64,000 nt of DNA from the IMG/VR virus record IMGVR_UViG_3300042987_002978, positions 40,852-104,851 of that record, one strand, 5' to 3'. The position numbers were made by a program, and so were the translations under genes. The stretch comes from a virus. This document shows, in pieces, positions 5,881-24,798 of this stretch (the stretch's first letter is position 1; the number at the start of each line of letters is the position of its first letter). A model generated the notes under the pieces. That model did not search any database. It saw only the letters and a program-made list of their open reading frames with translations, and was not told the DNA's origin.

Positions 5881-6762
5881 CTACGGATTTATCTTCGCCC
5901 ACGTCTTGTGGTTGACGATTCCCGTTGCTTCGAGTCCAACTTTTGTTTGGAACTCTTTCACTGCCGCCTGTGTCTTCGGACCGAAATCTCCGTCAGTGGC
6001 GCACTTGACTCCTGCTTTATTGAGAAGTTCTTGCAATGTGCGAACTGCACCTCCCTTTGAGCCGAGTTGAAGAACCGGATTTGTGGCAGCATTCGCTTTG
6101 CCGCGCTTGACGGCGGCATCGGCATTTCCTGCCGGAGCAGCGGGAGCAGCCGGAGCAGCGGCTTTCGGCGCTTCTGGTGCTGGCGTTGGAGCGGGAGCGG
6201 GTGCGGCCGCTTGACCCGGAGCACATGCCTCTGTCGGATTGGCATCCATCCAAGCCTTCACGGCTTCCGGAACGTTGTCACCTTCCGTATAACGAATGTG
6301 CCATGGTTCCTCTGGGACCACTTCCCAACTCCACCCGAACTTTGCGCAGTTGGCAATCATCCACTGCAAACGCGCACCACTTGCGGTATGAACATCACAG
6401 GCCAAACCGCTGTTGTGCTGCGATGTGCCCGGTGCAGCCAAGGGAGCCATCCCTTTCTTGAGCCAGTATTTCTTGCCCTCAAAGGTACGAGTCGACTGAC
6501 CTGGGATTTCATGGTCAACATAGCGTTGATTGAAAGCCGTCAATTGGGCATCGTAGGAGCGGTACAGGTCACCTGCCGAAGTCGGCTTGAGTTCAACACC
6601 TTCAGCAGCCGCAGCGGCCTTCATGGCTTTCCAAGCATTTGCCGCGCGCCAGTGGAGTTTGCCGCCATCGACTTTGGCGAGGATGGCTTCCGGCAAACGA
6701 CCCGGCTTGTGGCCTGCGACGTCAGCGGGCGGGGTGACTTTCTTGATGTACAGTTCCGACAT
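5881..6762 (-). CDS. Endolysin: VanY-type D-Ala-D-Ala peptidase with peptidoglycan-binding domain
   Basis: Encodes 293 residues. Residues about 20-165 form an M15 peptidase domain with the zinc motif SQHNSGLACD (His116, Asp123) and the EPWH motif (catalytic Glu near 151/152, His155). It should cleave stem-peptide bonds in host peptidoglycan. A Pro/Ala linker (about 178-215) leads to a C-terminal peptidoglycan-binding repeat (about 231-292: LQLGSKGGAVRTLQ..., DGDFGPKTQAAVKEFQ). No signal peptide is seen, consistent with holin-dependent release. Two small membrane proteins, the holin candidates, lie just upstream. Confidence 0.93.
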   Translation of the reverse strand: MSELYIKKVTPPADVAGHKPGRLPEAILAKVDGGKLHWRAANAWKAMKAAAAAEGVELKPTSAGDLYRSYDAQLTAFNQRYVDHEIPGQSTRTFEGKKYWLKKGMAPLAAPGTSQHNSGLACDVHTASGARLQWMIANCAKFGWSWEVVPEEPWHIRYTEGDNVPEAVKAWMDANPTEACAPGQAAAPAPAPTPAPEAPKAAAPAAPAAPAGNADAAVKRGKANAATNPVLQLGSKGGAVRTLQELLNKAGVKCATDGDFGPKTQAAVKEFQTKVGLEATGIVNHKTWAKINP

Positions 6763-6771
6763 TGCTATCTC

Positions 6772-7020
6772 CTAAGCGTGTGGGGGGTTGTCTTGTTCGA
6801 CTTTGCTGAATACCTGGTTCACTTCTTCTTCCGACAACTTTCCGTCAGTGAGGAATGCACGTGCCAATCCTTCAAGCACATTCGCCACGCCGCCGATTCC
6901 GGCCATAAACACGGCCTTTTCCATCGACACGCCAGCAATGGTGCCGGCGCCAATGACGCCAAGACCAGTCACGATGAAGGTCGCGAAGATTCTCAGGATT
7001 ACGTTTTTGATGAGTTCCAT
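6772..7020 (-). CDS. Small membrane protein, holin candidate
   Basis: Encodes 82 residues. An N-terminal hydrophobic region (about residues 8-48, with a glycine-rich TGLGVIGAGTIAGV core) can form one or two membrane helices, followed by an acidic hydrophilic tail (GKLSEEEVNQVFSKVEQDN). Small size, topology and position nine bases before the endolysin gene support a holin. The Shine-Dalgarno site is poor, and the leader carries alternative hairpins that could control expression. Confidence 0.65.
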   Translation of the reverse strand: MELIKNVILRIFATFIVTGLGVIGAGTIAGVSMEKAVFMAGIGGVANVLEGLARAFLTDGKLSEEEVNQVFSKVEQDNPPHA

Positions 7021-7036
7021 GTTCTGTCAGCCAGAT

Positions 7037-7078
7037 TGTGCGCCCGGCGGAGTGTTTACGCACCGGGCGCACACTCCG
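7037..7078 (-). promoter_or_regulatory. Mutually exclusive hairpins before holin candidate
   Basis: On the minus strand CGGAGTGT (7078-7071) pairs with ACACTCCG (7055-7048). TGTGCGCCCGG (7073-7063) pairs with CCGGGCGCACA (7047-7037). The arms share TGT at 7073-7071, so the 8-bp and 11-bp helices cannot be complete at the same time. No T-run follows the stronger stem. Confidence 0.5.
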
Positions 7079-7090
7079 AGGTAGCGATAC

Positions 7091-7315
7091 CTACTTCTTG
7101 GCCTTCTCCTTTGTAGTTTCAGGTTTCTTCGCGAGGAACGATGCGACGGAAGGGTCGCCGACCTTCGTGCTTGCCAACGCAAGTGCGTAGGCAGCGAGCG
7201 GCATCAAGAGAGCAGTAAGTGTCGGGTCAACGTTGTACTTATCGCACAGATAGACGACGACGCCGAGCGCTCCGCCTTTGACGACCTGGTCAAAACTCTG
7301 GCTCTTCTTGTCCAT
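7091..7315 (-). CDS. Small membrane protein, second holin/antiholin candidate
   Basis: Encodes 74 residues from ATG 7315, chosen because AAAGGAG lies six bases upstream. It has a Lys/Ser-rich N-terminus, a hydrophobic segment (GGALGVVVYLCDKY), a second one (LTALLMPLAAYALALAS) and a Lys-rich tail ending TTKEKAKK. Two predicted helices and the lysis context suggest a holin or antiholin partner. No family was recognised with certainty. Confidence 0.6.
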   Translation of the reverse strand: MDKKSQSFDQVVKGGALGVVVYLCDKYNVDPTLTALLMPLAAYALALASTKVGDPSVASFLAKKPETTKEKAKK

Positions 7316-7365
7316 GGATTGCTCCTTTGTTGAGGGCCACATCGGCCGCTTACAGTCTCAACGAA

Positions 7366-7389: not shown

Positions 7390-9579
7390 CTAGTCGCTTT
7401 TCTTCTCCATCAATCTCTTCATCAAATCCTTGACAAGTGACTGCTGCTCGATTTCGTCGCCTTCGGTCACTGCGTCGACGACGGAACGCTTCGCGTCGAC
7501 CAAATCGTAAATGTCTTCGTCAATTGTTCCGGAGGCAAGCAAGTACCAGGCCTGCACATTGTTCTTTTGTCCGATTCTGTGGCAACGGTCTTCTGCCTGG
7601 TCGTGCTCGCCGGGAGTCCAACCCATCTGGACGAAGACAACGTCGGAGCCTGCCGTCAATGTGATACCTACTCCACCAGCCTGAAGGTTGAGGACGATGA
7701 CTCTTGCGGAAGGGTCAGTCTGGAATGCATCGACCGCTGCCTGTCTTTCTTCGAGTGAGTCGCGCCCGCTGATTCTCAGATTGCCGTACTTCTCGGCAAG
7801 ATGGTCGACCACGTCGATGTTGTGGGCAAACACAACAAGTTTGCGGTCACACGATTCAAGGAACGAATCAATCCATTCCTCGACTGCGTCCATCTTCGCC
7901 CATGCGGCGAGGCGCTTAAGTACTTGGGTTCGCGCCAGATGCTCGCCTGAGTCTTTTGCCTTGTAGCCGTTCTCTCGCAAGAACAGAACGAGGTCATCTT
8001 CTGCCGATGAGTAATCTTTGTAACCTTTTCCGGCCACGTCGAGGTGAACGATGTTGCGGCTCTTTTCGGGAAGTTCCTTCAGGACTTCGTCTTTGGTCCT
8101 GCGGATGTAGCAGTTCTGCCTGAGTTTGGTATTGAGTTCAATCAGGTTGCTTGCTCCGCTTGTATCCCAGCCGAATCCGTTGTGGTAGGCGCCTGCATAA
8201 CGCTTGAGGAACGCCCATTTACCGCCGAAGCGGCCCAGCATCCCCATGATTTCCAATTGGCTCACAAGTTCAGACGGGCGATTGGTCACCGGCGTTCCGG
8301 ACAGCAGTAGAACGCTGCCCGAATTTGGGACCATCTCGGCTATGTCCTTTGCCGCCTTGGTGCGCTTGGACGAGGCGGTCTTGACATAGTGGGACTCGTC
8401 CAGCACCAGCCCGTTGATTCCTAAGTGTTCTATTGCCTCCACGAATTTGTACAAAATGTCGTAGTTCACTACGTTCACATCGCAAGCAACTATATCCGTC
8501 TTGCCGGACACGATATTGACCGTTCGGTGCGGCAGCCACTTGTTTATTTCTCGCCTCCAGTTCTCCTTGAGCGAGGCGGGACAGACTATGACCGCAGGAA
8601 ACGCATCGCGCATTTCCAGTGTTGCTATCGCTTCTACGGTCTTGCCAAGGCCCATTTGGTCAGCGACAAGACACCTTCCGACAGAAGACGCATAGGCGAC
8701 ACCAGCCTTCTGGTACGGCATCAGAGTTCCGGAAAGATTCGGGACATGGATGTCGGCGTCGGTTGAAGCCGACTTTTCAAGCAGTTCTGCCTCGCGTTTC
8801 GCCGAAGTCAACAGAGTCTTGCGCAGACTCTCCGACATTGAGAATCCGTACTTGTCCGCTATCTCCACGACCGACAAGACGGGTGGGGTGGACCAAACCT
8901 TTTTCTTTGCGTCCCACAGCCGACCTGGGATGTTCTTGATGTCGGCGACAATGTCCGGGTGGTAGGCGAACTCAAAGAGCAGGCGCCCGCTCTTGGACGT
9001 TGTTATCTTGCGGTCTTCTATTTGTGTTTGTTGCATTGTTGTGTTCATATGGTTGAGTTCTTCCGATGGGACGAATCCGTATTGAGAGACCAGTTTAGCG
9101 ACTTGTTCGGAACTGGACAAGGGTGCCACCCAAACGAGTGCTTTATTGTTCCACGAGACTCCGGGTATTTTCCTGATTTCCTCAATCAACTGCTCGTCAT
9201 ATTCGCAGCGCACGACGAACAGTTCCCCGTTGCTCGACACGGTATTCCGCGCTGCCGCATTTGTCGAAGACACCATTTCGTTGAATCCATGAGTGAAATC
9301 ATCCGGTCGCATCGGTGCAGGAATCTGGTCGTACTCGATTCCCAGCCCGGAAAGTTGGGTCTGATACTTGGCGAGCATTTTCCACGCTTCGTAGACGACC
9401 ACAGAATTCCACTTCGATACCGGGATGAGGGCCAGCATCGTGCCGTACCGTGCGTCGGCCTTGTTGAATCCGATTCCGTCCGTCGACTCTGCGCCGTCAC
9501 AAATTCCGGCAAGCGTGCGTATTGCTTTTGCAAGCAGTGACGCGTCGTAGCCGTCTATTTGTCGGTCAGGTTCGCCCAC
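7390..9579 (-). CDS. SNF2-family DNA helicase/translocase with HARP-like repeats
   Basis: About 729 residues from the GTG at 9579. A longer frame exists, but its extra N-terminus lies wholly inside the upstream gene. An N-terminal module (about residues 10-70) is followed by two HARP-like repeats, each ending in a conserved (W)-x-AP/PP...YGF pattern. The SNF2 core comes next: motif I ADQMGLGKT, DESH box, LLLSGTPVTN, and a C-terminal RecA lobe ending in GGVGIT and DRCHRIGQ. SMARCAL1-like proteins remodel stalled forks or anneal single strands, so a replication or repair role is likely. The start overlaps the upstream gene by 25 bases. Confidence 0.88.
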   Translation of the reverse strand: MGEPDRQIDGYDASLLAKAIRTLAGICDGAESTDGIGFNKADARYGTMLALIPVSKWNSVVVYEAWKMLAKYQTQLSGLGIEYDQIPAPMRPDDFTHGFNEMVSSTNAAARNTVSSNGELFVVRCEYDEQLIEEIRKIPGVSWNNKALVWVAPLSSSEQVAKLVSQYGFVPSEELNHMNTTMQQTQIEDRKITTSKSGRLLFEFAYHPDIVADIKNIPGRLWDAKKKVWSTPPVLSVVEIADKYGFSMSESLRKTLLTSAKREAELLEKSASTDADIHVPNLSGTLMPYQKAGVAYASSVGRCLVADQMGLGKTVEAIATLEMRDAFPAVIVCPASLKENWRREINKWLPHRTVNIVSGKTDIVACDVNVVNYDILYKFVEAIEHLGINGLVLDESHYVKTASSKRTKAAKDIAEMVPNSGSVLLLSGTPVTNRPSELVSQLEIMGMLGRFGGKWAFLKRYAGAYHNGFGWDTSGASNLIELNTKLRQNCYIRRTKDEVLKELPEKSRNIVHLDVAGKGYKDYSSAEDDLVLFLRENGYKAKDSGEHLARTQVLKRLAAWAKMDAVEEWIDSFLESCDRKLVVFAHNIDVVDHLAEKYGNLRISGRDSLEERQAAVDAFQTDPSARVIVLNLQAGGVGITLTAGSDVVFVQMGWTPGEHDQAEDRCHRIGQKNNVQAWYLLASGTIDEDIYDLVDAKRSVVDAVTEGDEIEQQSLVKDLMKRLMEKKSD

Positions 9580-10019
9580 AGCCTTATGTCGTGCGGTTCG
9601 GCGGTGTAATCGCCTTCGAACGATGCCCTTTTGTGCTCGACTATTGCCTTTACCAAGCGGGCATTTTCCTCCACGACATTGAGCGAATCCATGTTGCTCA
9701 AAATCGTCTTGACTTCCGACAGTCGCTTGTTGATGCCGTTGCGATAGCGCTGAGCCTTGCGCAACCACTCGTCGAACTTGAGTTTCTCTTCCGCGAAATC
9801 TTCAGGATTGGTGAGGCCAAGTTCCACGTCTCTGGCGAGCATGTCAATGCGCGTCTTGTGAAAGACCATCTGTGAATCAGAGTCTGACAAGGCTGTAATT
9901 AGCGCATGACACCACGCGAGTCTGTTCTCCTCGTCATGAAGCCAAGCGATTTCTTCTGAAGTAGCGTCTCCCTTGCATTCGCGTTTTGCCATGTCAAGGA
10001 CGTCTTTGTTGGGCAGCAT
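9555..10019 (-). CDS. Hypothetical helical protein
   Basis: Encodes 154 residues from ATG 10019, which has a GAGGTG ribosome site; an in-frame GTG lies six bases further upstream. It is rich in charged helical stretches (WLHDEENRLAWCHALITAL, EEKLKFDEWLRKAQRYRNG) and probably partly coiled-coil. No family was recognised. Its end overlaps the helicase start, suggesting translational coupling and possibly a shared role in DNA handling. Confidence 0.7.
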   Translation of the reverse strand: MLPNKDVLDMAKRECKGDATSEEIAWLHDEENRLAWCHALITALSDSDSQMVFHKTRIDMLARDVELGLTNPEDFAEEKLKFDEWLRKAQRYRNGINKRLSEVKTILSNMDSLNVVEENARLVKAIVEHKRASFEGDYTAEPHDIRLWANLTDK

Positions 10020-10074: not shown

Positions 10075-13000
10075 TTACTCGGTATCCGGCTCTTTCATGT
10101 GCAGCCACATCGCCGCGGCAATGGCAAGAACCGTCGATATTCCGGCAATTTTCTGAATAGGCCCGGACAAAGTTAAATAAACGACAAGTGAGCCCGCAAT
10201 CGTGAAGCCCATGTTCATGAGCCCGTACGAGAACTTCTTGAAGAATGCTTTCCAGTCCATCACTTTCACCCCATTTACGTACTTAAAGATGCTGATGTTC
10301 TTTATCCAATCTAAACCATCGCCGGCAATCTCGCCTTGAGGCTCTTCCTCGTCATCCTCTCGTCTAGCCGCAGTGTCCTGTCGCGTGCTCGGCGCACTTG
10401 GGCCAGACGATGAAGGTGAGCCACCCGACATTCCGCCAGTCGCTGTCATTGAAACGGCAGCAGCAGACGTGAGCAGTCCCGCTGCGATGACCGTGCGGCG
10501 CTCTCCGACGCTGATGTTCTGGTTCAACATCTTGTATCCGTCAAATGCGCCTTGGAACAAGTCCACGACATCCTCAAAGACTTCACGGACATCAGAGGGT
10601 GCTTCCTGGACCGCGTCCACGATTTGCTCGGCAACTTCTTCTGTAAGTTGCTCTGCCTCGACGCTCTCAAATACCTGTGCGGCCTGTTCCGTACTGACCG
10701 ACTCAAGAACGGCAGGATTGGAGGCAAGAGTTGCTGCTACTTCTTGACTGACCCCAGCCTCGATTACAGCGGCCACCACGGCCACGATTTGTTCTTTCTG
10801 CTCTTCTGTCAAGGACTTGGGGTCTTCCACTTTGGTGATTGCCTCGATTACCTCGGCCACCACCTCAGCAACCCTGTCTTCGGGGACGGAATCAATCAGG
10901 TCAGCCACGACTTCTGCCGTCTCTTCGGGGGAGGCGTCCTCCAGTTCGGAAACTGCCTCTTCTACGGCTTCAGAAACCTCAGACTCTGGCTCTGGTACCG
11001 TTGTTTCTGGTGAGACAGGTTCTGGGTCTTCTTGCTCTTGGGGCAACACTGTTGTTTCAGTTGGCTGTTCTTCTTGCTCTGGCTCTACGGGGTCCTCTGG
11101 AAGAGTCGTATCTGGAGAAACATCAGCAGGGGTAGACGGTGTTGTTGTTTCGGGCTCTTCGACAGGCTCTGGTGTCGTGGTGGTCGTTGAATCGGTCTCT
11201 TCGGGAATGGTCGTCTCAACAGGCTCAGGCTGAGTGGTCGTCGTCGTCTCAGGCTCAGGCTCAGGCTCGGTCGTTGTTGTCGGAGGAACAGTCGTTATCG
11301 GGGGAGGCGCTTCCGTCGTCGTTGGAGCGGGGGCTTGGGTCGTAGTCGTCTGAGGAGCAGGGGCGACAGTCGTCGTAGTAGTGCTGGTCGTGGTAGTAGT
11401 CGTGGTACTGGTCGTCGTGGTCGTGGTGGTCGTCGAAGTAGTGGGGTCAACCACCGTCACGTCGACAGTCGAGTACGGCCCGTATGTGCATGAGCCTTGG
11501 CCTTCGCCAACACATGCAGCGCTTCCGGCGCGAACCTTGAATCTGACAGGTCCGTATCCGGTGGTTCCCGGAAATTGATACGAACCGACCACATAGGCGG
11601 TATTCGTGGCGTATGTCCACACACCCCAGCCGCCAGACTCGACATTATTGTTCAAGTCGAACCAACTGACGTCGTACATGTGCGGTGAAAGATTGCCTGA
11701 GGCTGGGGCATCCCAATCAAGAGAAACGCTTCCGTCTTGGTTGGCCGAACCTGTCAAGTTTTGAACTTGATTAAAATACGGGACAACCGTAGTCGTAGTT
11801 GTAGTCGTAGTGGTCGTAGTGGTTGTTGTGGTTGTTGTAAAAGTTGGATTCGGGTCGACAACGCTCGCCACCGCAGTTGAATTGCTGTAGCGGAGCATGT
11901 CAACAAAGTAAATGTCTCCTTCTGCCGGAAGGGAGAATGACGAAATAATCTTGCCGTTTCCGTTGAAGTAAATCTCTTTGTAATAGCCAGGTGCTTGGCA
12001 GGTCGAGCATCCTGCTGTCAATACCGAGTTTCCAATGGTAAATGTTGTGGTTGTTCCGTCTGAATATGTCACAGTTCCAGTTGCATCACCGTTCTTCGCC
12101 CCGACACGGAAGTAAAAACTTCTTGGAGTTGCCGATGATGGAAGTGTGAACAGCGCTGACTGCGACGGGTTGCCGGCATACACGGCAACACCGGTCGTGC
12201 CGTAACCGTTGTTCATGTTTGCGTAATACCAACCTGATTGATTGCTTGACGTGAGCGCACTTCCATTCACTGAAACCGTCACTCCAGTTGTCGGTCCTGG
12301 ACCCTCAAAATCCTCCGTTGTTTCCGTTCCGGTGCCAGGAGAGGGAACAGTCGTGCTCGTAGTGGTCGTTGTCGTTGGCGCAGGCGCAGTCACGGTGATG
12401 TTCATTGATTCGCTTACCACGATGCTTGACGGCATGTTGTATTCAGCGACATAACCTCCGACGCTTGACCAGGAATCGGGAAGGTCGTTCCAGCAGTTGC
12501 CGCCACTCCATTTGGTGACAGCGGCATCCTCGTTGCCTGAGTTGTTGGGCTCGCCACCGCACCACTTGGCGTAGTTCCCGCCTTGTGCAGACCCGTTGCT
12601 AACGCCGCGCCAGACAAGCGTTCCTTGTTCAGGAGAGCCGTCGTATGGGTCAAGAACCCAGTCACCTTCGACTGCCCTGTCGGAAAGGGCTATCCAGATG
12701 TTGTACGCACCTTGGATTTTGCTGAGGACGAACTCGTGTTCCGCGTCGGATGTGATGGTCACCAAATAGCCATTTACTCCGCTGATTGTTCTTGTCCGCG
12801 CCGCTGTCCTTGCATTCAAGTAACTGATGTTCCCTTGGACAAATTCATACAAATGGCCGTTAAAAAATGCAGTGTTGTTGACTTTCTCAGATACCTCAAT
12901 AGTCAATGTTGCGGAACCAGCCGTCGCGCCAGAATCCAGAGTCATCGCATCAAGCGCCGTATTGATGTTCGTTTGATTGCCAGTGAAATTGATTTGCGAA

Positions 13001-13308
13001 GTGTTGGTCCAAGACGTGTACCCAGACTCAAGCGTCAATCCAGTCGTCGTCGGCAAGTTGACCTTCGCAGCAGTTGAGCCAGAAACAGTGATGCTCACCA
13101 AAAGATTGGCGGATTCACTAAAGCCAGAAACTTGAAAATCATCACTGAGGGCAAGCCCGTTTTGGCCGCTGACAGTTGTTATGTCAGAAGGTGCCGCAAC
13201 GGACTCTCCCGCAGCGTTCGCTGTTTTCAGAGGTGTGCCAAAACTGAAAAGCATGCACATGAAACACGTCAACCAAATCAGTGCTTCGAACGGTCTGCGC
13301 CTCAACAT
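10075..13308 (-). CDS. Secreted, membrane-anchored C-type lectin surface protein
   Basis: Encodes 1077 residues. Order: signal peptide (1-32, ending ANA); cadherin-like beta region (35-145); C-type lectin fold (about 148-291) with WIALSD, the mannose-type sugar/calcium triad EPN (253-255), WND (273-275) and cysteines 250/272; beta-sandwich domain (330-485); poly-Thr run; fibronectin III-like domain (510-625); Thr/Pro/Glu-rich stalk; acidic helical region (about 780-940); hydrophobic segment near 960; and a C-terminal membrane helix (about 1030-1060) with a short tail. It looks built for display on the infected cell, or possibly the virion. Actinobacterial surface proteins use the same linkers. 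Neighbours are glycosyltransferases. Confidence 0.85.
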   Translation of the reverse strand: MLRRRPFEALIWLTCFMCMLFSFGTPLKTANAAGESVAAPSDITTVSGQNGLALSDDFQVSGFSESANLLVSITVSGSTAAKVNLPTTTGLTLESGYTSWTNTSQINFTGNQTNINTALDAMTLDSGATAGSATLTIEVSEKVNNTAFFNGHLYEFVQGNISYLNARTAARTRTISGVNGYLVTITSDAEHEFVLSKIQGAYNIWIALSDRAVEGDWVLDPYDGSPEQGTLVWRGVSNGSAQGGNYAKWCGGEPNNSGNEDAAVTKWSGGNCWNDLPDSWSSVGGYVAEYNMPSSIVVSESMNITVTAPAPTTTTTTSTTVPSPGTGTETTEDFEGPGPTTGVTVSVNGSALTSSNQSGWYYANMNNGYGTTGVAVYAGNPSQSALFTLPSSATPRSFYFRVGAKNGDATGTVTYSDGTTTTFTIGNSVLTAGCSTCQAPGYYKEIYFNGNGKIISSFSLPAEGDIYFVDMLRYSNSTAVASVVDPNPTFTTTTTTTTTTTTTTTTTVVPYFNQVQNLTGSANQDGSVSLDWDAPASGNLSPHMYDVSWFDLNNNVESGGWGVWTYATNTAYVVGSYQFPGTTGYGPVRFKVRAGSAACVGEGQGSCTYGPYSTVDVTVVDPTTSTTTTTTTTSTTTTTTTSTTTTTVAPAPQTTTTQAPAPTTTEAPPPITTVPPTTTTEPEPEPETTTTTQPEPVETTIPEETDSTTTTTPEPVEEPETTTPSTPADVSPDTTLPEDPVEPEQEEQPTETTVLPQEQEDPEPVSPETTVPEPESEVSEAVEEAVSELEDASPEETAEVVADLIDSVPEDRVAEVVAEVIEAITKVEDPKSLTEEQKEQIVAVVAAVIEAGVSQEVAATLASNPAVLESVSTEQAAQVFESVEAEQLTEEVAEQIVDAVQEAPSDVREVFEDVVDLFQGAFDGYKMLNQNISVGERRTVIAAGLLTSAAAVSMTATGGMSGGSPSSSGPSAPSTRQDTAARREDDEEEPQGEIAGDGLDWIKNISIFKYVNGVKVMDWKAFFKKFSYGLMNMGFTIAGSLVVYLTLSGPIQKIAGISTVLAIAAAMWLHMKEPDTE

Positions 13309-13312: not shown

Positions 13313-13361
13313 GGAAGAATAAATCTTCCGGCTAGATAGTGTTTATAATTGCGCGATTATA
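13313..13361 (-). promoter_or_regulatory. Promoter and leader hairpin of lectin gene
   Basis: A perfect TATAAT (minus strand, 13361-13356) lies about 48 bases before the lectin start and overlaps the glycosyltransferase stop. A TTTAAC-like -35 is possible. The leader contains GGAAGA-TTTAT-TCTTCC immediately before the ATG, which would place the purine-rich ribosome site in a hairpin. Confidence 0.45.
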
Positions 13362-14469
13362 GTTTCGCTATCTTGTTAAAGACTTCTATCCACTGCGACG
13401 CTGTTTGTTTGATGGAAAACTGTTTGGACACTATCGTTCTTGCTCTTCTTGACTCTTCTTCTCGTTTAGCAAGATTCAGGAACGAATCAAGGTGATTTTC
13501 CCATTCTTGTTGTGATGAGGCGACTCGGCCCACCCCAGCATTGGCAAGGTACTCGTACTCCGGAAGATTTGATGCGACAAAAGGAATTCCTGCCGCCGCA
13601 TACTCAAGACCTTTTATGAATGACTTGGCTCGATTGAACGGTATGTCGTTTAGCGGGACGATTCCGATATCAAAATTTGCGTAGACATTGGGCAAGTCGT
13701 AGAGCGGCACCATGGGACTGACGGAGCACAAATCGGGGTTTATCTTGAGCCTCAGATAGGCAGGACCAGCCCAAGGGATGTGTCCTGCATGGTGGAAACG
13801 GGCATCGCGACTGGTCAGATATTCGTTGAAGAACGGCGATATCTGCTCAAGGTCCATGGACCGCCACGGCGTGGCACCGAGCCACCCAATTATCGGCTTG
13901 CGCTTCACCGTCCTGAATCGAGTCCATCTTTCTATGTCAATGGCGTTGCGGACCATGAATATGGGCTTCTTGGGGTATTTCTTTTTGTAGTACTGCTCTA
14001 TGAATGGCGTAGAGCAGATTAGGGCGTCGGCGTTCTTGATTATCTCCGCGTAAATCTCCCTGTTGCTTTCTTTGGATTTTGCAGGGTCGGTCGACCTATA
14101 GGCGTGGTTTGTTTCGTGCAGTTCTTCGTGAAGGTCGTCGATATCTACCACGATTTTTTGACCGATGGCTTTTGCTTTCGGCATCGCCTCAAGGGTCTGT
14201 GCCGACATGATTACCTTGAGAACGATTATTCCGTGCCTGTGCGAAAACGTGTCGTTCAGCCGCTTGATGACGAACTTACCGTTTGGCTTTATGGACAAGA
14301 ACCCGAAACTTGCGTGGATTCCGGCAAGATTCAACTGCTGTGCCGGAAGTATGCACCTGTACCACGTGCAGCCGTTCGGTACGTATTGGTCTTCGTCTCT
14401 TCCCCAATCGAGCGAAGCAAACCCGACGCTGAACGTAAGTCCTTCGTCTTTGAAAACGTGGCGATTCAT
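13357..14469 (-). CDS. Glycosyltransferase, GT4-like (copy 2)
   Basis: Encodes 370 residues from ATG 14469, which overlaps the stop of the preceding gene as ATGA. It shows a two-domain GT-B pattern: an N-terminal half with VVDIDDLHEELHETNHAY and a C-terminal half with IIGWLGATPWRS and the donor-site-like KGLEYAAAGIPFVAS. It is clearly paralogous to the adjacent gene (shared NGCTWYRCILPA, ALICSTPF, FMVRN and DIGIVPLN), so the pair is a tandem duplication. Acceptor and sugar are unknown; host glycan, virion protein or modified DNA are all possible. Confidence 0.85.
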   Translation of the reverse strand: MNRHVFKDEGLTFSVGFASLDWGRDEDQYVPNGCTWYRCILPAQQLNLAGIHASFGFLSIKPNGKFVIKRLNDTFSHRHGIIVLKVIMSAQTLEAMPKAKAIGQKIVVDIDDLHEELHETNHAYRSTDPAKSKESNREIYAEIIKNADALICSTPFIEQYYKKKYPKKPIFMVRNAIDIERWTRFRTVKRKPIIGWLGATPWRSMDLEQISPFFNEYLTSRDARFHHAGHIPWAGPAYLRLKINPDLCSVSPMVPLYDLPNVYANFDIGIVPLNDIPFNRAKSFIKGLEYAAAGIPFVASNLPEYEYLANAGVGRVASSQQEWENHLDSFLNLAKREEESRRARTIVSKQFSIKQTASQWIEVFNKIAKL

Positions 14470-15572
14470 GTTATGTCCATGATGCTGGTGTACACGTGTT
14501 CCCATTGCGATGCGAAAGAATCGATTGAGAAGTGCTCGGTTATTATTTCTTTGTTCAACTCCGACTCGTCGACGCGCATGTTGTAATCCATCAGTTCGTT
14601 GAAATGCGCAATCCACTCTTCGTCCGTTTTCGCTATTCTTCCCACTCCGGCGTCCGCCAGGTATTGATATTCTGGAGTATGGGACGCGACGAACGGGATT
14701 CCTGCGGCGGCATATTCAAGGCCTTTCAAATATGACTTTGCGTGGTTGAATTCGACGTTGTTCAAAGGGACTATGCCGATATCGATGTTCTTGTAGAGTT
14801 CCGGAAGTTGCGTCATAGGAAGCATCGGCGTGGTGCTTACTTGCTTGTCGTCGATTCCAAGAAGCGAGGCGGCGCTGTCCGCCGCGGCTATGTGGCCGGA
14901 GTGGTGAAAAGTCGTGTTCTGCGATATCAGGTATTCCTTGAAGAAGGACGACAACTGCTCTAAGTCTCTTGAACGCCACGGAGTCGCGCCAACCCAACCG
15001 ATTACAGGTACGGAACGTCTGGTGTTGCGCTTGGGCCACCGACCGATGTCGATGGAGTTTCTCACCATGAACACAGGCTTTGTAGGGTGCTTTTTTGAAT
15101 AAAAGTCGTACAGGAACGGCGTCGAGCAAATCAGGGCATCGGCCATTTCAATGACTTGAAAATAGATATCGCGATTGTTGTCCTTGTGAAGTTCCGGGTC
15201 GGTCTGCTGACGAGCCCTGTTCGTCTCGGGAAGATTGTCGAACCAGTCGTCTATATCAACGACCACACGGACCTTGTTCGCTTTTGCTATTTGTACCGCT
15301 ATGAGGTTTGCGGCGTGCATCGGCAGTTTGAACACCAGCATTTTGTGACCCGAATAGATACCTTCCGTCTTGTACAGAGGTGCACGTACGCGAACGCCCA
15401 CCTTGCCGTCGGCGACCGATATGGTTCCGATTTGGCAGGCATGATTACGTCGAATCATTGCCATTGCCGGAAGAATGCAGCGATACCAAGTGCAGCCGTT
15501 GGGAAAAGACAGATTCTGGACTTGAGACCAGTCCTGAGAGATGAACCCGATGCTGAGCGGCGTGGTTGGCAC
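14466..15572 (-). CDS. Glycosyltransferase, GT4-like (copy 1)
   Basis: Encodes 368 residues. It starts MPTTPLSIGFISQDWSQ and shares the GT-B layout of its neighbour: VVDIDDWFDNLPETNRA in the first domain, VIGWVGATPWRSRDLEQ between domains and KGLEYAAAGIPFVASHTPEY in the donor-binding domain. It is translationally coupled to copy 2. It opens a minus-strand cluster downstream of two oxygenase-like genes, suggesting a joint modification pathway. Confidence 0.85.
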   Translation of the reverse strand: MPTTPLSIGFISQDWSQVQNLSFPNGCTWYRCILPAMAMIRRNHACQIGTISVADGKVGVRVRAPLYKTEGIYSGHKMLVFKLPMHAANLIAVQIAKANKVRVVVDIDDWFDNLPETNRARQQTDPELHKDNNRDIYFQVIEMADALICSTPFLYDFYSKKHPTKPVFMVRNSIDIGRWPKRNTRRSVPVIGWVGATPWRSRDLEQLSSFFKEYLISQNTTFHHSGHIAAADSAASLLGIDDKQVSTTPMLPMTQLPELYKNIDIGIVPLNNVEFNHAKSYLKGLEYAAAGIPFVASHTPEYQYLADAGVGRIAKTDEEWIAHFNELMDYNMRVDESELNKEIITEHFSIDSFASQWEHVYTSIMDIT

Positions 15573-15621: not shown

Positions 15622-16209
15622 TTATAGGGGCACCCAGTGGTCAAGCGAATTCAAAGATTTTTGTATGCTGCCGTATGAATGTATGTCAAACGCAATCGTT
15701 ATTCGTGGTTCATCTTTTAGGGGCTTGGATGTTTTGTGGAAATTATCGTTTGACTTTGCAAACACCAGCAACCCGTCCTTTGAGTCAACTTTTATGCGTT
15801 GACCATCATCGAACTTGTACTGAGTATTTCCTGCACTTGACTTGACACAAAAAAATCCGTGGTACGAATGCTTGCTGCCATAGTGTCTGTGCCAATCAAG
15901 TTTTTGTTTGTCTCTGTAAACATTCACCCAGCCTTGAATGTAGTATTTTTTGGACACATCAATGTCTGCCGAATAAAAGGTATCTCTTATCGCACAGTAG
16001 AGAGAATTAAGTTCTACGGACGGATAGCAAAAAACGTTGTAAAAGTCTGCCACCCGCGTGCCGAACGGGGTGTCTTCATCAATTTTGTAGTTTTGTGGTT
16101 TGTCTGAAAGCGTGCTGGCAACCAACTCTTCTATCTCCAGACATTGTTCAGAAAGTTCTCGCAGGTCAATTTCTTCCAGCAGAACAGAAACTATTTTTCT
16201 TCTTGCCAT
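15622..16209 (-). CDS. 2-oxoglutarate/Fe(II) oxygenase-like protein
   Basis: Encodes 195 residues from ATG 16209, leaving a ten-base gap to the previous gene; a TTG at 16245 is the alternative. The C-terminal half resembles a double-stranded beta-helix oxygenase: QGWVNVYRDKQKLDWHRHYG (first iron-binding segment), SYHGFFCVKSSAG, distal FHKTSK and RITIAFDI carrying the Arg for 2-oxoglutarate. The usual HxD reads HRH here, so the acid ligand is not certain. It would hydroxylate a small molecule, sugar, nucleotide or protein. Confidence 0.6.
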   Translation of the reverse strand: MARRKIVSVLLEEIDLRELSEQCLEIEELVASTLSDKPQNYKIDEDTPFGTRVADFYNVFCYPSVELNSLYCAIRDTFYSADIDVSKKYYIQGWVNVYRDKQKLDWHRHYGSKHSYHGFFCVKSSAGNTQYKFDDGQRIKVDSKDGLLVFAKSNDNFHKTSKPLKDEPRITIAFDIHSYGSIQKSLNSLDHWVPL

Positions 16210-16219
16210 ATGCTCAGTC

Positions 16220-16741
16220 TCAGAAATAGTTAAAGTTGATAACAATTCTGTATTTCGTGTTCGTGTGCGTTGTCCCAGCGTGGCTCATTGTTGCCGGGAA
16301 TACAACGACTCTATTGGCAACACTTTCTACTTTTGTGCCATCCTCGAACAATGTATATCCGTCATTCGTGTTTAAGTAGTAAATGGCAGTCTTCATTGCT
16401 GACATGACCTCAGGTTTTCGCAGCATCGTAGGATAAGCAATGTCCGTGTGCATGTCTGATACTTCTATGGTCGGTGTTGATGGTCTGAAATTTGCTTTTG
16501 CCCTGACAAGTACGTCCGACTTCAAATTGCGCAGAAGTGGGGCCAGCACAGAGTAGTAGGGGCTCGTCTGACTGTTGTCCCTGTAGAAAATGTGGGTGAA
16601 TTGAAAATCGTTCAGCGAGCGACTGGGTTTGTCTTTGTAGACTACGCTGTTGTTGTAATGCCAATTAAATTTCACGTCGGTCAGCGTCGTAAATATAGCC
16701 GAGTGTTCTTCCTTTTTGAGGAATTCGTCAATGATTTCCAC
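16220..16741 (-). CDS. 2-oxoglutarate/Fe(II) oxygenase
   Basis: Encodes 173 residues from GTG 16741. Longer versions would run into the divergent plus-strand gene. It has a clear prolyl-4-hydroxylase-like iron site: MHTDIAY (HxD), AIYYLNTNDGYTLFEDG, then FPATMSHAGTTHT (distal His) and YRIVINFNYF with the 2-oxoglutarate Arg. It lies ten bases before a second oxygenase-like gene and opposite a third. The substrate is unknown. A TATACT box seven bases before the GTG suggests a leaderless message. Confidence 0.75.
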   Translation of the reverse strand: MEIIDEFLKKEEHSAIFTTLTDVKFNWHYNNSVVYKDKPSRSLNDFQFTHIFYRDNSQTSPYYSVLAPLLRNLKSDVLVRAKANFRPSTPTIEVSDMHTDIAYPTMLRKPEVMSAMKTAIYYLNTNDGYTLFEDGTKVESVANRVVVFPATMSHAGTTHTNTKYRIVINFNYF

Positions 16742-16748
16742 GCTGCCA

Positions 16749-16770
16749 AGTATAGTAGAATGATACGGAG
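16749..16770. promoter_or_regulatory. Divergent overlapping promoter
   Basis: Between two divergent oxygenase genes the sequence AGTATAGT supplies TATAGT (16751-16756) on the plus strand and TATACT (16754-16749) on the minus strand. The plus gene then has GGAG (16767-16770) six bases before its ATG. The two directions should compete for polymerase. Confidence 0.5.
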
Positions 16771-16776
16771 AAAAAT

Positions 16777-17451
16777 ATGTTGATTCAGCCGTACGCAATC
16801 TACGACAATTTCTTGGATGACCCAAGCGCAGTAATCAGGTCTCTTCGCTCGCAAAGGTATTACGTGCAGGGACTACCGGATACGGGACAAGTGTCGAACA
16901 ATGACATACCTCTGGAAATCAACTACGGAGACGAAAGCGTCACCGGAGACCCGAGGTTTGGTTCGCCCTACTGGAAGGGCTACAGGACCAGGGACCTGCA
17001 AGAAATAGACATGGACAGTTACAACATAATCATGAGCAAGTTGCTTGAGCACATATTCGGCTCGTTCACATTGGCACAGATTGAGTTTGACGCCGAAACA
17101 CATTTCCACCTCATGACCAAAGACTTTGTTTTTACTGATACGTGGTTCCACTCCGACGCCAGCAAATTCATTGCCGGCGTTTTGTACCTGGCAGAAGACC
17201 CTGGTCCGAACAGTGGGACGGCGCTGATGATAAACGGTGAAAAAGTCTCAATAGAAAACAAGTTCAACAGGTTGATTGTCTATAACGCTGGCTTGACGCA
17301 CAGCGCAGAAGGCTGTTTCGGGGACTCGCTTGAGAACTGCAGGGCTACGTTTGTATTTTTTATCCGGAATATCTTGCTGTTCAACGACATATTGGAACAG
17401 CAGGAACCGACATCAATGGGCAATCAGCACAATTACATAGGCGGATACTGA
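16777..17451 (+). CDS. DUF6445-like / 2OG-Fe(II) oxygenase-superfamily protein
   Basis: Encodes 224 residues. Seen: an N-terminal YAIYDNFLDDPSAVIRSLRS typical of short phage and bacterial oxygenase-like proteins, DTWFHSDASKF as the HxD site, a VLYLAEDPGPNSGTAL strand, and GLTHSAEGCFGDSLENCRATFVFFI as the distal His and Arg. It is predicted to be cytoplasmic. It lies seven bases before the carbamoyltransferase on the same strand, so the two form a small operon and probably act on the same molecule. Confidence 0.7.
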   Translation: MLIQPYAIYDNFLDDPSAVIRSLRSQRYYVQGLPDTGQVSNNDIPLEINYGDESVTGDPRFGSPYWKGYRTRDLQEIDMDSYNIIMSKLLEHIFGSFTLAQIEFDAETHFHLMTKDFVFTDTWFHSDASKFIAGVLYLAEDPGPNSGTALMINGEKVSIENKFNRLIVYNAGLTHSAEGCFGDSLENCRATFVFFIRNILLFNDILEQQEPTSMGNQHNYIGGY

Positions 17452-17458: not shown

Positions 17459-19165
17459 ATGAGAATCGTAGGAATAAGTACCGCGCACGATAGTTCTGTT
17501 GCCTCATATTGCGACGGCGAAATTGAGTTCTTCATGAAAGAAGAGCGGATTACCAAGCGCAAGAGGGACAAGAACCCATTCGCAGCCATGGTGGAAACGG
17601 CCAAATTCTTGGGCAACAAGAAAATCGACGCAGTCGCGGTATCTGCACCGCACAACACTGATGTCGACAGTTACTTGTTCGCGATAATCGATGCCGCGAC
17701 AAAGATTTTCAAGACAAACAACATATACAAACTCTTCAACAGCCATCACTTGTGCCATGCTTCGTTGGCTTTTTACAACAGTGGATTTGACAATGCTGTC
17801 GTGGTAATCGTGGACAGAAACGGCTCGAACAATCCGAATTCAAATATGCTGCTTTTCGAGTCCGAAACGGTTTTCACCGCGGAATACCCAAGTTCATTCA
17901 AGGAAATAAAGAAGAACTACTGGCTTGCGCAGCGCGGGCAAAGTTCTGATGCGTTCCTGTTGGAACTCGTTCCCAGAGAGAAAACAAAGAGACCAGGATG
18001 TGAAATATCGTACGAGAGTTTGTACGGCATCACCAAGGTCTACGAAACTGCGACCATTCTCATAGGCGAAGGAATTCTGGAAAACGGCAAGACGATGGGA
18101 CTTGCTGCATACGGGAACGAAAACCAAGATTTTCCCAATCTGTTTCTTGACAACGGCTGTCCCAACGACTCCCTGTTCTCCTATGCGATGAGCAGTCGTG
18201 ACAATACGCTTGCTGCGATATATAAAGAATACGCAGGCAAGATGACCAAAACGGTCGACAAAAACGACTATCAGTTTTATGCGGACTATGCGTATCAAGT
18301 TCAAAAGCAAACACAAGAACAGGTGGCAAAACTCATTGAGACGGCGGTACAGCGAACAGGCATAAAGAACGTTTGCGTCTCTGGTGGTTACGGTTTGAAC
18401 GTTGTTGCCAACGGCTACTACATATCGAAGTTCCCAGACGTCAATTTCTTCTTTGAGCCGCTCGCCGATGACACCGGGAACAGCATTGGCGCGGCAATGC
18501 TTGTTTATAGAGAATTGTCAAAAGACAAAACCATACGACCGTTGAAGTCGACTTTCTTCAACGGCCACGAGCCGCATATTTCAGCAGAAGAATTTGACAG
18601 GCACCCGATTTCATATGGCAAGGCAACCGTCAACGATGTTGCAAGATTGTTGGCGGACAACGCAAAACTTGCCATGTTTGCCGGCAAGGCGGAGGGCGGT
18701 CCGAGAGCGCTCGGGAACAGGTCGATTTTGTTTTACCCAAATCTTGCCGACTCAAAAGACATCGTAAATCGAATTAAGAAACGAGAGTGGTACAGGCCGT
18801 TTGCGGCATGTGTCTTGAAAGAAGATGCCTGGGAATACTTTGACATGATGTCGCTGACCGAAAGCCCGTACATGACCGTTTCTTTCGACTGCCGCGCCAT
18901 GACAAAAGAATTGTTTCCGGGGATTGTCCATGTTGACAATTCGTGCAGAGTGCAGACGGTAGGCGAGGAGAACAAGAACCTACATTCCTTGTTGACGGCA
19001 ATAAAAGAACTGACTGGTCACGGGTTGTTGTTGAATACAAGTTTCAATTTGGCCGGCAGCCCGCTGGTTGAAACTATTGACGATGCGATAAAGGTCATGA
19101 TGGAATCAGAACTTGAATACATCTGGATTCCAGAACACCAGACGCTGCTAGGCAAGCAGCGATAG
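17459..19165 (+). CDS. NodU/TobZ-type O-carbamoyltransferase
   Basis: Encodes 568 residues. The N-terminal Kae1-like domain carries MRIVGISTAHDSS, the metal site HHLCHASLAF (about residues 97-106) and the VDRNGSN turn. The C-terminal domain carries AEGGPRALGNRSIL, REWYRPFAACVL and LLLNTSFN. The family transfers carbamoyl from carbamoyl-phosphate via carbamoyl-AMP to hydroxyl groups on sugars or antibiotics. Some phage members have been linked to carbamoylated hydroxymethyl-cytosine. Here an oxygenase gene precedes it, which could supply the hydroxyl. It ends convergently with a minus-strand gene. Confidence 0.9.
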   Translation: MRIVGISTAHDSSVASYCDGEIEFFMKEERITKRKRDKNPFAAMVETAKFLGNKKIDAVAVSAPHNTDVDSYLFAIIDAATKIFKTNNIYKLFNSHHLCHASLAFYNSGFDNAVVVIVDRNGSNNPNSNMLLFESETVFTAEYPSSFKEIKKNYWLAQRGQSSDAFLLELVPREKTKRPGCEISYESLYGITKVYETATILIGEGILENGKTMGLAAYGNENQDFPNLFLDNGCPNDSLFSYAMSSRDNTLAAIYKEYAGKMTKTVDKNDYQFYADYAYQVQKQTQEQVAKLIETAVQRTGIKNVCVSGGYGLNVVANGYYISKFPDVNFFFEPLADDTGNSIGAAMLVYRELSKDKTIRPLKSTFFNGHEPHISAEEFDRHPISYGKATVNDVARLLADNAKLAMFAGKAEGGPRALGNRSILFYPNLADSKDIVNRIKKREWYRPFAACVLKEDAWEYFDMMSLTESPYMTVSFDCRAMTKELFPGIVHVDNSCRVQTVGEENKNLHSLLTAIKELTGHGLLLNTSFNLAGSPLVETIDDAIKVMMESELEYIWIPEHQTLLGKQR

Positions 19166-20063: not shown

Positions 20064-20480
20064 TCAGCCGTTTTCTGTCGCGGCGTACGAGGGTGGATAG
20101 TTGCAAGAAGTGGATACCCTTGTGACAACGCTCGTGTTTGTTGGGCATGAATATGTCGTCGTATAGGTTGGGGAAGCCCCATAACCCCATTCTGGTCTGT
20201 GCAGGTTGGCGTTGTCACACGGTCCGCACCAGTTGGTGCAGTTACATCCACAACCTTGACCTGCTCCGATGCACCATCCACCGCAATTTGCGCCGCCAGA
20301 TGGGCAGTAACTGCCGCTTTGCCATGTCCACGCTGTTGCAGAATAATTCGCCGGGTAGTTGCAAGTCGTTCCGCTCAAAGAAACGATTGCCGTGTTGGTA
20401 TTGCAGGTATAGAACACGCTCCTGCGGGACAGGCCGAATCTCCTTGCCGAGCCGCCGCCCAACTTGTTTACGAATGGCAT
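20064..20480 (-). CDS. Cysteine-rich fibre-associated protein
   Basis: Encodes 138 residues with about 13 cysteines. Two copies of a T(S)xTCNYPxxYxAT motif, one mid-protein and one at the C-terminus, flank a dense region with PSGGANCGGWCIGAGQGC and NCTNWCGPCDN. The N-terminus MPFVNKLGGGSARRFGLSRRS resembles the leaders of the glycine-rich adhesin genes at 21816 and 22592. It is likely a disulfide- or metal-stabilised tip or surface protein. No known family was recognised. Confidence 0.7.
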   Translation of the reverse strand: MPFVNKLGGGSARRFGLSRRSVFYTCNTNTAIVSLSGTTCNYPANYSATAWTWQSGSYCPSGGANCGGWCIGAGQGCGCNCTNWCGPCDNANLHRPEWGYGASPTYTTTYSCPTNTSVVTRVSTSCNYPPSYAATENG

Positions 20481-21815: not shown

Positions 21816-22589
21816 CTACGGACGGAACCTTACGTAGACGATTCCAGAGCCGCCACTTTCGCCTCCGCTGCGCACTGCGCCGCCACCTGCCGACCAACGA
21901 GTTCCACCACCACCGCCACCAGAGTAACTTCCATTGCCAGGACCAGCACCGTTAGAACCGCCCGCACCGTTTCCACCGTTTCTTCCAGAGGTGCCGTTAC
22001 CGCCACCCATGCCGCCTTGCCCCAGCATCGGACCACCACCACCGCCGCCAGCACCACGATAAGTATGACCAGCCGGCTGACCGATGAAAGCCGAAATGTC
22101 GGTTCCGTTACCGCCATTTTGTCCTTGACCTCCACCGTTCGGGGAGCCACCACCGTCGTTACCGCCGCCACCGCCGCCGCCAGTTGAGTTGGTTTGTGAA
22201 CCAAATGTCGTAGTGCCACCATTGCCGCCGTTGCTACTAAGTGCGCCGCCACCGCCACCACCACCAATTGTGATGCTTTGATTTGATGTAAGAGTCAGAA
22301 GCAAACTTTGACGAACCTGTCCGCCACCGCCACCGCCGCCGCCGGCATCGCTACCTTCGTTGCAGCCACCTCCTCCTCCACCGCCGCCACACCATAAGAC
22401 ATCAAACTGCCCCGAGCGAGTGACGGTCAGGGTACCAGAACTGGTGAATGTCAATAAAGTATATGTCTGTCCGTCGACAGTTATGGATGAGGAACTACCA
22501 CCAGTGGCAGCGCCGTAAGGGTTGGGCACTGAGCGAAGAGAGCCAAACCCTCTTCCCGAAGAAGAACCGAATGTTCCAATAATAGGCAT
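21816..22589 (-). CDS. Glycine-rich adhesin-like protein, module C (copy 5)
   Basis: Encodes 257 residues. It starts MPIIGTFGSSSGRGFGSLRS, followed by a Ser/Thr-rich beta segment and a central region of glycine runs spaced by Asn, Ser and Thr, ending GGSGIVYVRFRP. Glycine-rich sequences of this kind can form polyglycine-II bundles like the adhesin of phage S16. It is predicted to be a distal receptor-binding tip. Unlike three paralogues it lacks the YHIYTF end. Confidence 0.75.
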   Translation of the reverse strand: MPIIGTFGSSSGRGFGSLRSVPNPYGAATGGSSSSITVDGQTYTLLTFTSSGTLTVTRSGQFDVLWCGGGGGGGGCNEGSDAGGGGGGGGQVRQSLLLTLTSNQSITIGGGGGGGALSSNGGNGGTTTFGSQTNSTGGGGGGGNDGGGSPNGGGQGQNGGNGTDISAFIGQPAGHTYRGAGGGGGGPMLGQGGMGGGNGTSGRNGGNGAGGSNGAGPGNGSYSGGGGGGTRWSAGGGAVRSGGESGGSGIVYVRFRP

Positions 22590-22591
22590 AG

Positions 22592-23452
22592 TTACACCAC
22601 CACCAAAGAGCCGCTGCCAGTAAACGTGTGAATTGTGTACGAGCCAGAAGTAGTTTTCGAGCCGCCAGTAATTGTGTAGGCACTTGCGCTTGAGGTCAAG
22701 TAGCGAACAATTACGATTCCGGAGCCGCCGCTTAAACCGCCGCCGCCGCCACCTCCACCGCCGCCAGTGTTTGCCGCTCCTACAGTTGCTCCGTTGCCAG
22801 CATCGTAATATCCACCGTTTCCACCACCACCCGCACCACCTGCTTGACTACTCGGGTCTTGACTGGCTCCACCACCACCACCGGCACGAGTTACAGAAGA
22901 GCCTGTTATGGAAGATGCCCTACCAGAGCCACCTCCACTTGTTCCTCCACCTGCAGCGGCACCACCTCCACCACCGGCTGCATCCGCACCGTTTCCGTTT
23001 CCACCACCATAACCTTGACTTGCAGTGCCGCCAAATCCGCCAGTTGCGCCTGAAGATGCACCGCCACCGCCGGAACCACCAGTACCACCGCCACCGCCGT
23101 TTCTACGACCGCCACCGCCACCCGTAGAAGTTATCGTATGAAAAACGGAGTTGGAACCGTTACCTCCTTCTGCACCACCTCCACCACCGACGGTGACCGT
23201 GTAAGTGCCGGCACCGAGAGAAAGAGCCGCTTCTGCGGCTGCGCCACCGCCCGAAGTTTCGCCGGAGACTGACGACCTATAACCACCTCCGCCACCTCCG
23301 CCGCCGTAAGCACCTATTCCTGTGTCGTTTCGGTTTCCACCGCCGCCACCGGCAACGACAAGATATTCAACGCTGAACAGCGGTCTTGCAAAGACTCGTA
23401 ATCCACCGAACCCTCTTGTTGAGGAAGAACAGAACGTTCCTGAAAGCGGCAT
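22592..23452 (-). CDS. Glycine-rich adhesin-like protein, module C (copy 4)
   Basis: Encodes 286 residues. The leader MPLSGTFCSSSTRGFGGLR matches that of copy 5. An EYLVVAGGGGG segment follows, then GYRSSVSGE, then glycine-run repeats, then LSGGSGIVIVRYLTSS and a C-terminal TTSGSYTIHTFTGSGSLVV. It shares the YLVIAGG, YR(S/T)SVSG and GSGIVIxR landmarks with the copies at 24846, 25847 and 26837. Two bases separate it from copy 5. Confidence 0.78.
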   Translation of the reverse strand: MPLSGTFCSSSTRGFGGLRVFARPLFSVEYLVVAGGGGGNRNDTGIGAYGGGGGGGGYRSSVSGETSGGGAAAEAALSLGAGTYTVTVGGGGGAEGGNGSNSVFHTITSTGGGGGRRNGGGGGTGGSGGGGASSGATGGFGGTASQGYGGGNGNGADAAGGGGGAAAGGGTSGGGSGRASSITGSSVTRAGGGGGASQDPSSQAGGAGGGGNGGYYDAGNGATVGAANTGGGGGGGGGGLSGGSGIVIVRYLTSSASAYTITGGSKTTSGSYTIHTFTGSGSLVVV

Positions 23453-23460
23453 AGTTATTC

Positions 23461-24426
23461 CTATGCGAACTTGGTCTGAGTCTCTAGCACCTGGTATGTC
23501 GGGGTTGCTGCGGTCTTGACAATCGTGAACGAGTAAACGTCAATCGACGAAGCGTTGCCTGCAGAAATTGCGGATGGAACCTTCGGAGTAACTGCCGACC
23601 CGTCAATCTGGATGACGTTCGGATAGTACGGAGTCGCTCCGTTCTGATTCATCCACACGACGGTTATCACGTCGCCTACCGCCAGTTTTGACGAAAGGGT
23701 CGTGCTTGAGTTGTAACGGAAGTTCAGCGTGTGGTTCGCCGTCGCGTTCGATGTGTAGAACCAAATCGACGATGTTGCAATGTCAATGTTGATGGTTCCA
23801 GTAGCGGCCGCGGCAACGACGTTTGCGCGCTCCTGAAGGCCCTGAACGATGAGTTCTTTCGTCAGGTTTGTGTGAGCACCGTTGATTGTCGGGCTCGTCA
23901 AGGTCTTGTTCGTCAGCGTGTCACTTGAGGATGTCGTAACGACGTTTACTCCCTCAATAGTGACGACTCCTGCCGCACTGCGGGCAAGCGTGGTGTCGTT
24001 GGCGTGGCCAAGTTCAATCGAGCCGACACCGAGAGGCGAGGTCGTTGAAGTGCCCAATTTTGAGATAGCGATGGCCGCTGCCGCATTGACATCAGCATCG
24101 ACAATCACGCCTGAAGCAATTGAAGTAACTCCGGAGGAATCAATGGTTACATCGCCAGATTCTGTAACAGAGGTGGGGACCCCAGAGGCGTTGTAAACGA
24201 TGATATTCCCAGCAGTGCTAGTAGCGAGTTTGGACAGTGCAATCGCTGCGGCTGCATTGATGTCCGCATTGACGATTGAGCCGTCGGCCAGTTCAGTCGA
24301 GCCGACCGAACCGGCACCGAGAGCACCGGTAACGATTTTCCACGAAGTGCCGTTCCACTGCCACGTGCGAGCGCCGTCAGTGTACGTCTGGTTGACAGAA
24401 GGACTTGATGGAAATGTTAACGGCAT
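23461..24426 (-). CDS. Tail fibre protein, module A (copy 1)
   Basis: Encodes 321 residues. It is paralogous to 20500 at both ends. The middle holds two repeats of the IVNADINAAAAIALSKL / IVDADVNAAAAIAISKL type, common in phage fibre shafts. It probably trimerises. It follows the module-B gene by three bases, in the same order as in the second module. Confidence 0.8.
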   Translation of the reverse strand: MPLTFPSSPSVNQTYTDGARTWQWNGTSWKIVTGALGAGSVGSTELADGSIVNADINAAAAIALSKLATSTAGNIIVYNASGVPTSVTESGDVTIDSSGVTSIASGVIVDADVNAAAAIAISKLGTSTTSPLGVGSIELGHANDTTLARSAAGVVTIEGVNVVTTSSSDTLTNKTLTSPTINGAHTNLTKELIVQGLQERANVVAAAATGTINIDIATSSIWFYTSNATANHTLNFRYNSSTTLSSKLAVGDVITVVWMNQNGATPYYPNVIQIDGSAVTPKVPSAISAGNASSIDVYSFTIVKTAATPTYQVLETQTKFA

Positions 24427-24429
24427 AAA

Positions 24430-24798
24430 TTACTCTCCTTGGGGTACGACTTCATCCCATTGAAGTTCTTCTTCGTTCCAGACCCAGAATCCTGTCTCTG
24501 GACGCGCAACCGGGGCTTCCCAGTCGCATGTTGTCTCGTTGAGAACCCAAGACGGGTACGGCTTCGGTGCGATGAATGCATCGCGCTCGGCATCATACGC
24601 ATAGCCGATTCCGGCATAACGCTTGCGGAAGTTGTTGTTGTACGAGGTTTGCTTCCAAGTGCCGCCGAGAAGATTCGTGCAGAAAGCCACACCGATTTCC
24701 TCACTGGCCGGAAAGTCTCCACCACCGCAATCGTTGTTGGATACGACGATTACCTGCGTCACGATGTTGTCCGAGTCAATTTGGGCAAAATGTGCCAT
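24430..24798 (-). CDS. Small conserved tail-cassette protein, module B (copy 1)
   Basis: Encodes 122 residues and is paralogous to 21456: IDSDNIVTQVIVVSNND, an EEIG segment, GGTWKQTSYNNNFRKRYAGIG, ERDAFIAPKPYPSWVLNETT and a tail ending WNEEELQWDEVVPQGE. It lies between glycine-rich genes and the module-A fibre. Function unknown. Confidence 0.75.
   Translation of the reverse strand: MAHFAQIDSDNIVTQVIVVSNNDCGGGDFPASEEIGVAFCTNLLGGTWKQTSYNNNFRKRYAGIGYAYDAERDAFIAPKPYPSWVLNETTCDWEAPVARPETGFWVWNEEELQWDEVVPQGE

Follow-up and report, generated by a model that had tools for sequence, protein, structure and literature searches.

Locus and protein architecture

The gene analysed here fills positions 10075..13308 on the minus strand of a 64-kb window (the whole stretch of DNA under study), which belongs to a virus record of 104,851 bp, as a single open reading frame (ORF). 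A first-pass annotation, made from the sequence alone, had reported a 1077-residue ORF at this position, with a signal peptide, several beta domains, Thr/Pro stalks, an acidic helical region and C-terminal membrane segments. All of these were recovered, and the observation is confirmed (Table 1). An N-terminal beta domain is confidently modelled by AlphaFold and two further beta modules are predicted, while the poly-Thr runs and Thr/Pro/Glu stalks can be read directly in the sequence; homology to a relative, L004, starts at the poly-Thr start of the Thr/Pro/Glu stalk (window 11433). An AlphaFold model of the last 308 residues, based on 51 sequences, is confident for the helical domain (mostly ~90-98 pLDDT), which leads into a membrane helix and, past a disordered acidic linker, a membrane hairpin, giving three predicted membrane helices in total. 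A strongly hydrophobic N-terminal segment is kept in 61 of the 63 family ORFs counted as 5'-complete, and the C-terminal hydrophobic pair in 56/63, and in several of the others the pair is encoded by an ORF of its own further downstream. These counts argue that the surface-protein anatomy is more than chance.

Table 1 Features of the surface-protein gene and its immediate surroundings (window coordinates).
Feature	Position	Strand	Details
Whole surface-protein gene	10075..13308	(-)	1077 aa; ATG at 13308; start matches L104 relative (MFRQKPFAALFWLTCFVC...)
Signal peptide (predicted)	13213..13308	(-)	residues 1-32; Arg-rich start, hydrophobic segment, AxA site (ANA|A)
First beta domain	12871..13209	(-)	residues 34-146; AlphaFold pLDDT mostly 74-91
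C-type lectin domain	12436..12867	(-)	residues 148-291; Pfam Lectin_C, PDB profile search; model core low-confidence
EPN motif	12544..12552	(-)	residues 253-255; invariant in 5 alleles
WND motif	12484..12492	(-)	residues 273-275; invariant in 5 alleles
Second predicted beta module	11848..12321	(-)	residues 330-487; common to L002, L004, L008, L009
Poly-Thr linker	11788..11838	(-)	residues 491-507; read from sequence
Third predicted beta module	11443..11781	(-)	residues 510-622; common to L007, L008, L013, L020 and others
Thr/Pro/Glu-rich stalk	10990..11442	(-)	residues 623-773
Acidic all-helical domain, family core	10519..10989	(-)	residues 774-930; AlphaFold ~90-98 pLDDT blocks, alignment A7
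Predicted membrane helix 1	10441..10509	(-)	residues 934-956; AlphaFold model
Disordered linker, conserved acidic AARREDDEEE..GEI motif, predicted cytoplasmic	10291..10440	(-)	
Amphipathic start and membrane hairpin (helices 2 and 3)	10093..10257	(-)	residues 1018-1072
Two glycosyltransferase genes	13357-14616, 14466-15572	(-)	directly upstream; phrog_7162 E=8e-36 and 3e-32
Downstream lysis cassette	5881..7342	(-)	VanY + peptidoglycan-binding endolysin 5881-6762, holin-like 6772-7020, small membrane ORF 7091-7342

The gene sits in a structural region, with tail-fibre-like genes on one side and the gene for the major tail protein on the other, and from this gene order we infer that it is expressed late. 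The capsid, portal, major tail protein and endolysin of the window were identified by profile; the tape-measure, terminase and tail-fibre labels are putative, since they were read from gene order and sequence. Across 84 loci of the family, a VanY-type endolysin is the commonest recurrent neighbour (42/84, always on the same strand); next in frequency come a minor-tail-like gene, 2OG oxygenases and a holin-like gene. A tyrosine integrase was absent from 13/13 records, which may be incomplete, and a serine recombinase was found solely in the phage DSL-LC01, so that a role in lysogeny is not suggested. WhiB genes, an actinobacterial marker, occur in 14 of 23 records including that of the window. 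This supports actinobacterial hosts. The phage carrying the gene probably infects a freshwater-type actinobacterium.

Several other genes of the region were recorded. An SNF2-type helicase (window 7390-9768, minus strand) separates the surface-protein gene from the lysis cassette, an order also seen in L004, L005, L010, L100 and L104. Beside the two glycosyltransferases are two 2OG-oxygenase-like ORFs (15622-16245 and 16220-16825) and a plus-strand ORF (17459-19165) that resembles a NodU-type carbamoyltransferase. Five glycine-rich ORFs on the minus strand (starting at 21816, 22592, 24846, 25847 and 26837, within 21816-27790) resemble tail-tip adhesins by eye, and four of them have an EYLV(I/V)AGG-like start in common. 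A Cys-rich ORF (20064-20480, minus strand) contains a duplicated CNTNT/CPTNT motif, and a subtilase with a signal-like N-terminus (Peptidase_S8, E=1e-37; 52416-53570, minus strand) is likely a secreted protease. In the L046/L057/L061/L063 group, a 773-aa ORF with a VanY domain is located directly upstream of the surface protein (L046 4771-7089).

The C-type lectin domain

A C-type lectin with intact EPN and WND motifs had also been proposed in the first-pass annotation, and the searches agree with it. Pfam Lectin_C matches residues 178-275 with E=6.3e-5 (24.1 bits, cut-off 22.6), phmmer against the PDB returns C-type lectins with langerin as the best (E=1.6e-4), and a PDB profile search with the lectin domain likewise finds C-type lectins (E=3.3e-5). 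The EPN and WND motifs, E260 and the C250/C272 pair are invariant across all five known alleles of the domain. An AlphaFold model of the lectin region made from five sequences has a core pLDDT <50, with Foldseek matches to C-type lectins at E ~0.1-0.5, the low confidence being due to the shallow alignment. Support for the C-type lectin fold therefore comes from the sequence profiles and the conserved calcium-site residues. The ectodomain model also matched B4GALNT1 in Foldseek (E=1e-4, TM 0.3), which was not taken as meaningful.

The anchor family

The C-terminal anchor (residues ~770-1077) defines the family to which the protein belongs. The anchor model (A7, 51 sequences) comprises a helical domain, an FDxY motif, a TM helix, an acidic linker and a TM hairpin, all of which are present in the window protein; its own genome scores E=2e-111, being among the sequences of the model. 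One scan of IMG/VR yielded 322 tblastn-confirmed anchor relatives, which is a lower bound. Among GenBank phages only DSL-LC01 carries the anchor, and UniProt/BFVD contains uncultured-phage proteins that match the model. The anchor occurs once in 18/18 records, second matches falling inside or beside the same ORF. Pfam gave nothing above cut-off and NCBIfam nothing; among solved structures, the best PDB sequence match has E=0.0055 and Foldseek found no match at E<=0.001. No description of the family was found within the open-access literature.

Two pattern scans of 84,980 prokaryotic species genomes found no anchor relative within their sensitivity, nor were any found in plasmids, and an origin as a host-derived surface protein was rejected on these grounds, although a distant homologue in hosts may exist. 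The family is apparently virus-only, and appears to represent an undescribed, constant membrane anchor on which unrelated sugar-binding heads are exchanged.

Exchange of heads on a constant anchor

Pfam analysis of 60 ectodomains, not all of them independent, identified PA14 (15), fn3 (5), Lectin_C (4), legume-type lectin (3, with E down to 1e-40), SUEL lectin (3), beta-helix (3) and GLEYA (1) domains, more than half of the scanned ectodomains being devoid of a recognised lectin domain. The L112 protein adds an LCCL domain. Several unrelated folds, mostly sugar-binding, recur on one anchor. The single-protein view of the first-pass annotation can hence be widened, the C-type lectin being one of several heads that can replace one another on a conserved anchor.

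Amino-acid comparison revealed 29 pairs in which the first ~300 residues are >=90% identical and the anchors <75%. Twelve pairs show the reverse, with similar anchors and different heads, including the window protein and L004 (anchor 96%, heads unrelated). The DNA of L057 and L063 is 99.0% identical across the 7 kb that end at gene position 104; from position 1041/642 on, identity is 96.3%. In L008 and L009, a PA14-like and a beta-helix-like module (names read from the sequences) are exchanged between flanks of 94.7% and 91.7% DNA identity. Near-identical phages thus differ by clean replacement of the ectodomain, with breakpoints mostly just past the signal peptide or within or close to Thr-rich linkers. 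The L039/L070/L072 and L068/L069/L071 pairs, in which ectodomains are common and the flanks switch at one point, were set aside as evidence of exchange, since the assembly of metagenomes can yield chimeras at a shared repeat; this weakness does not apply to L057/L063 and L008/L009, whose flanks match on both sides. DGR diversification was ruled out: over ~104 of 104.9 kb, neither a repeat of the lectin DNA that could act as template nor an ORF with convincing reverse transcriptase motifs was detected.

Proposed role on the infected cell

The features described above support the first-pass reading of a C-type lectin that is encoded by the phage, secreted and anchored in the membrane, with the build of a surface protein, now as one member of a modular family. 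We propose that the signal peptide exports the protein, that the conserved helical domain and three-helix anchor would hold it in the host cytoplasmic membrane, and that the Thr/Pro stalks would project the lectin head beyond the wall. On the strength of this anatomy, outward display on the infected cell is very probable. Binding of a glycan by the head is probable, given that carbohydrate-binding folds recur and that the calcium site is intact, and we regard display and glycan binding together as rather likely. The glycan would most likely belong to the host's own envelope, near or identical to phage receptors, and its masking late in infection could block superinfection and prevent progeny from re-adsorbing to spent cells. 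The anchor would be kept while recombination past the signal peptide and in poly-Thr linkers swaps the lectin heads, as expected if the target glycan varies among host strains. Such receptor masking is put forward tentatively, as the most likely though not the sole possible use of the protein; two points favour it, the position of the gene alongside late genes and the expectation that swapped heads would follow the glycan types of the hosts. Superinfection block, cell aggregation and altered grazing, raised in the first-pass annotation as possible roles, are all putative.

The nearest rival to receptor masking is adhesion, in which the displayed lectin would bind in trans, tethering the infected cell to biofilm, particles or uninfected kin, which would place the burst close to new hosts, or altering the cell's handling by grazers. 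The same anatomy and head diversity, and long stalks that extend outward, fit this reading equally: whether the lectin binds in cis or to other cells, particles or grazers, the pattern left in the sequence would be no different. Functions directed at grazers do exist in this setting, since anti-eukaryote toxins are encoded by freshwater phages, for some of which Actinobacteria are the predicted hosts (PMC6802176). A Pfam search recognised no toxin or protease domain in the surface protein, however, and nothing in the sequence singles out trans binding, which we consider rather unlikely.

A link to lysis is suggested by the hairpin formed by the last two membrane helices. In L008, L009, L022, L023 and L071 it is encoded by its own ORF of 55-63 aa, adjoining or overlapping the main stop codon (TAATG, ATGA or overlapping junctions; the L022 hairpin starts 8 bases past the main stop), an arrangement that in our view ties the hairpin functionally to the anchor. 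With its predicted two-helix N-in/C-in topology and lysis genes adjacent, the hairpin could behave as small two-helix holins or lysis regulators do, the ectodomain tuning or sensing lysis time. The gene is often close to endolysin and holin-like genes, and the predicted topology, with a single N-out/C-in helix and an N-in/C-in pair, parallels that of LysF1b and LysF1a of mycobacteriophage Girr, both of which are required for efficient lysis (PMC13056207). This resemblance is the reason for keeping a lysis role open. Against it, the stand-alone hairpins match phrog_29041, with further weak matches, all of unknown function, and no holin family in the PHROG search; a separate holin-like gene exists; and sugar-binding, exchanged heads are left unexplained, making a lysis regulator improbable. 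Glycan-gated lysis control, with the exchangeable head sensing contact or superinfection outside and setting lysis time via the hairpin, is more improbable still.

The location among structural genes, together with the existence of phage tail proteins with C-type lectin folds (PMC6199706, PMC10743442), could indicate that the protein or its processed ectodomain decorates the particle or forms a fibre, but the signal peptide and membrane helices across the family, the lack of a DGR and the absence of any PHROG structural or tail match for the surface protein make this very improbable. None of the homologues is an established virion protein.

Phages vary the host-recognition proteins on their virions. 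By contrast, this large and apparently virus-only family varies a sugar-binding protein predicted on the infected cell, and does so by domain exchange, with unrelated lectin folds placed on one anchor. Should display and binding prove true, freshwater actinobacterial phages would gain a second layer of glycan recognition, superinfection exclusion in these abundant bacteria would become testable, and host surface-glycan diversity would have an added selective reason.

Comparison with known systems

Langerin and DC-SIGN have EPN, WND, two cysteines and profile similarity in common with the window lectin. These are animal cell receptors of other architecture, and the likeness is confined to the lectin domain. 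A C-type lectin fold is likewise found in DGR-diversified phage tail proteins (BPP-1 Mtd type; tentaclins, PMC10743442); these are receptor-binding and varied by reverse transcriptase, whereas the window protein combines a signal peptide, an anchor and domain exchange. The membrane topologies of Girr LysF1a/LysF1b, which also adjoin an endolysin in actinophages (PMC13056207), are similar, but these proteins are small and without a large ectodomain, and the likeness is one of topology rather than of compared sequences.

The Flavobacterium phage immuto lectin (QQO91931.1) has a signal-like N-terminus and 33% identity in the lectin domain, but with 332 aa is devoid of stalks and of such an anchor. 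Its C-terminus resembles a dockerin, and a protein annotated with a cohesin domain is encoded two genes downstream (L003 5803-8698). Two proteins of uncultured Caudovirales match the anchor model, A0A6J5P167 ('Fibronectin type III') with E=3e-15 and A0A6J5SZ50 ('PA14 domain containing') more weakly with E=3.5e-3; the sources consulted describe no family, function or head exchange for them. WJZ48438.1 of Actinomycetia phage DSL-LC01 (OQ999401, PMC10611076), from a metagenome-assembled genome, differs by the lack of a C-type lectin head and is annotated as hypothetical. It shares its anchor and stalk plan with the window protein, with 46-49% identity over the common part, in what is, as here, a predicted actinobacterial phage.
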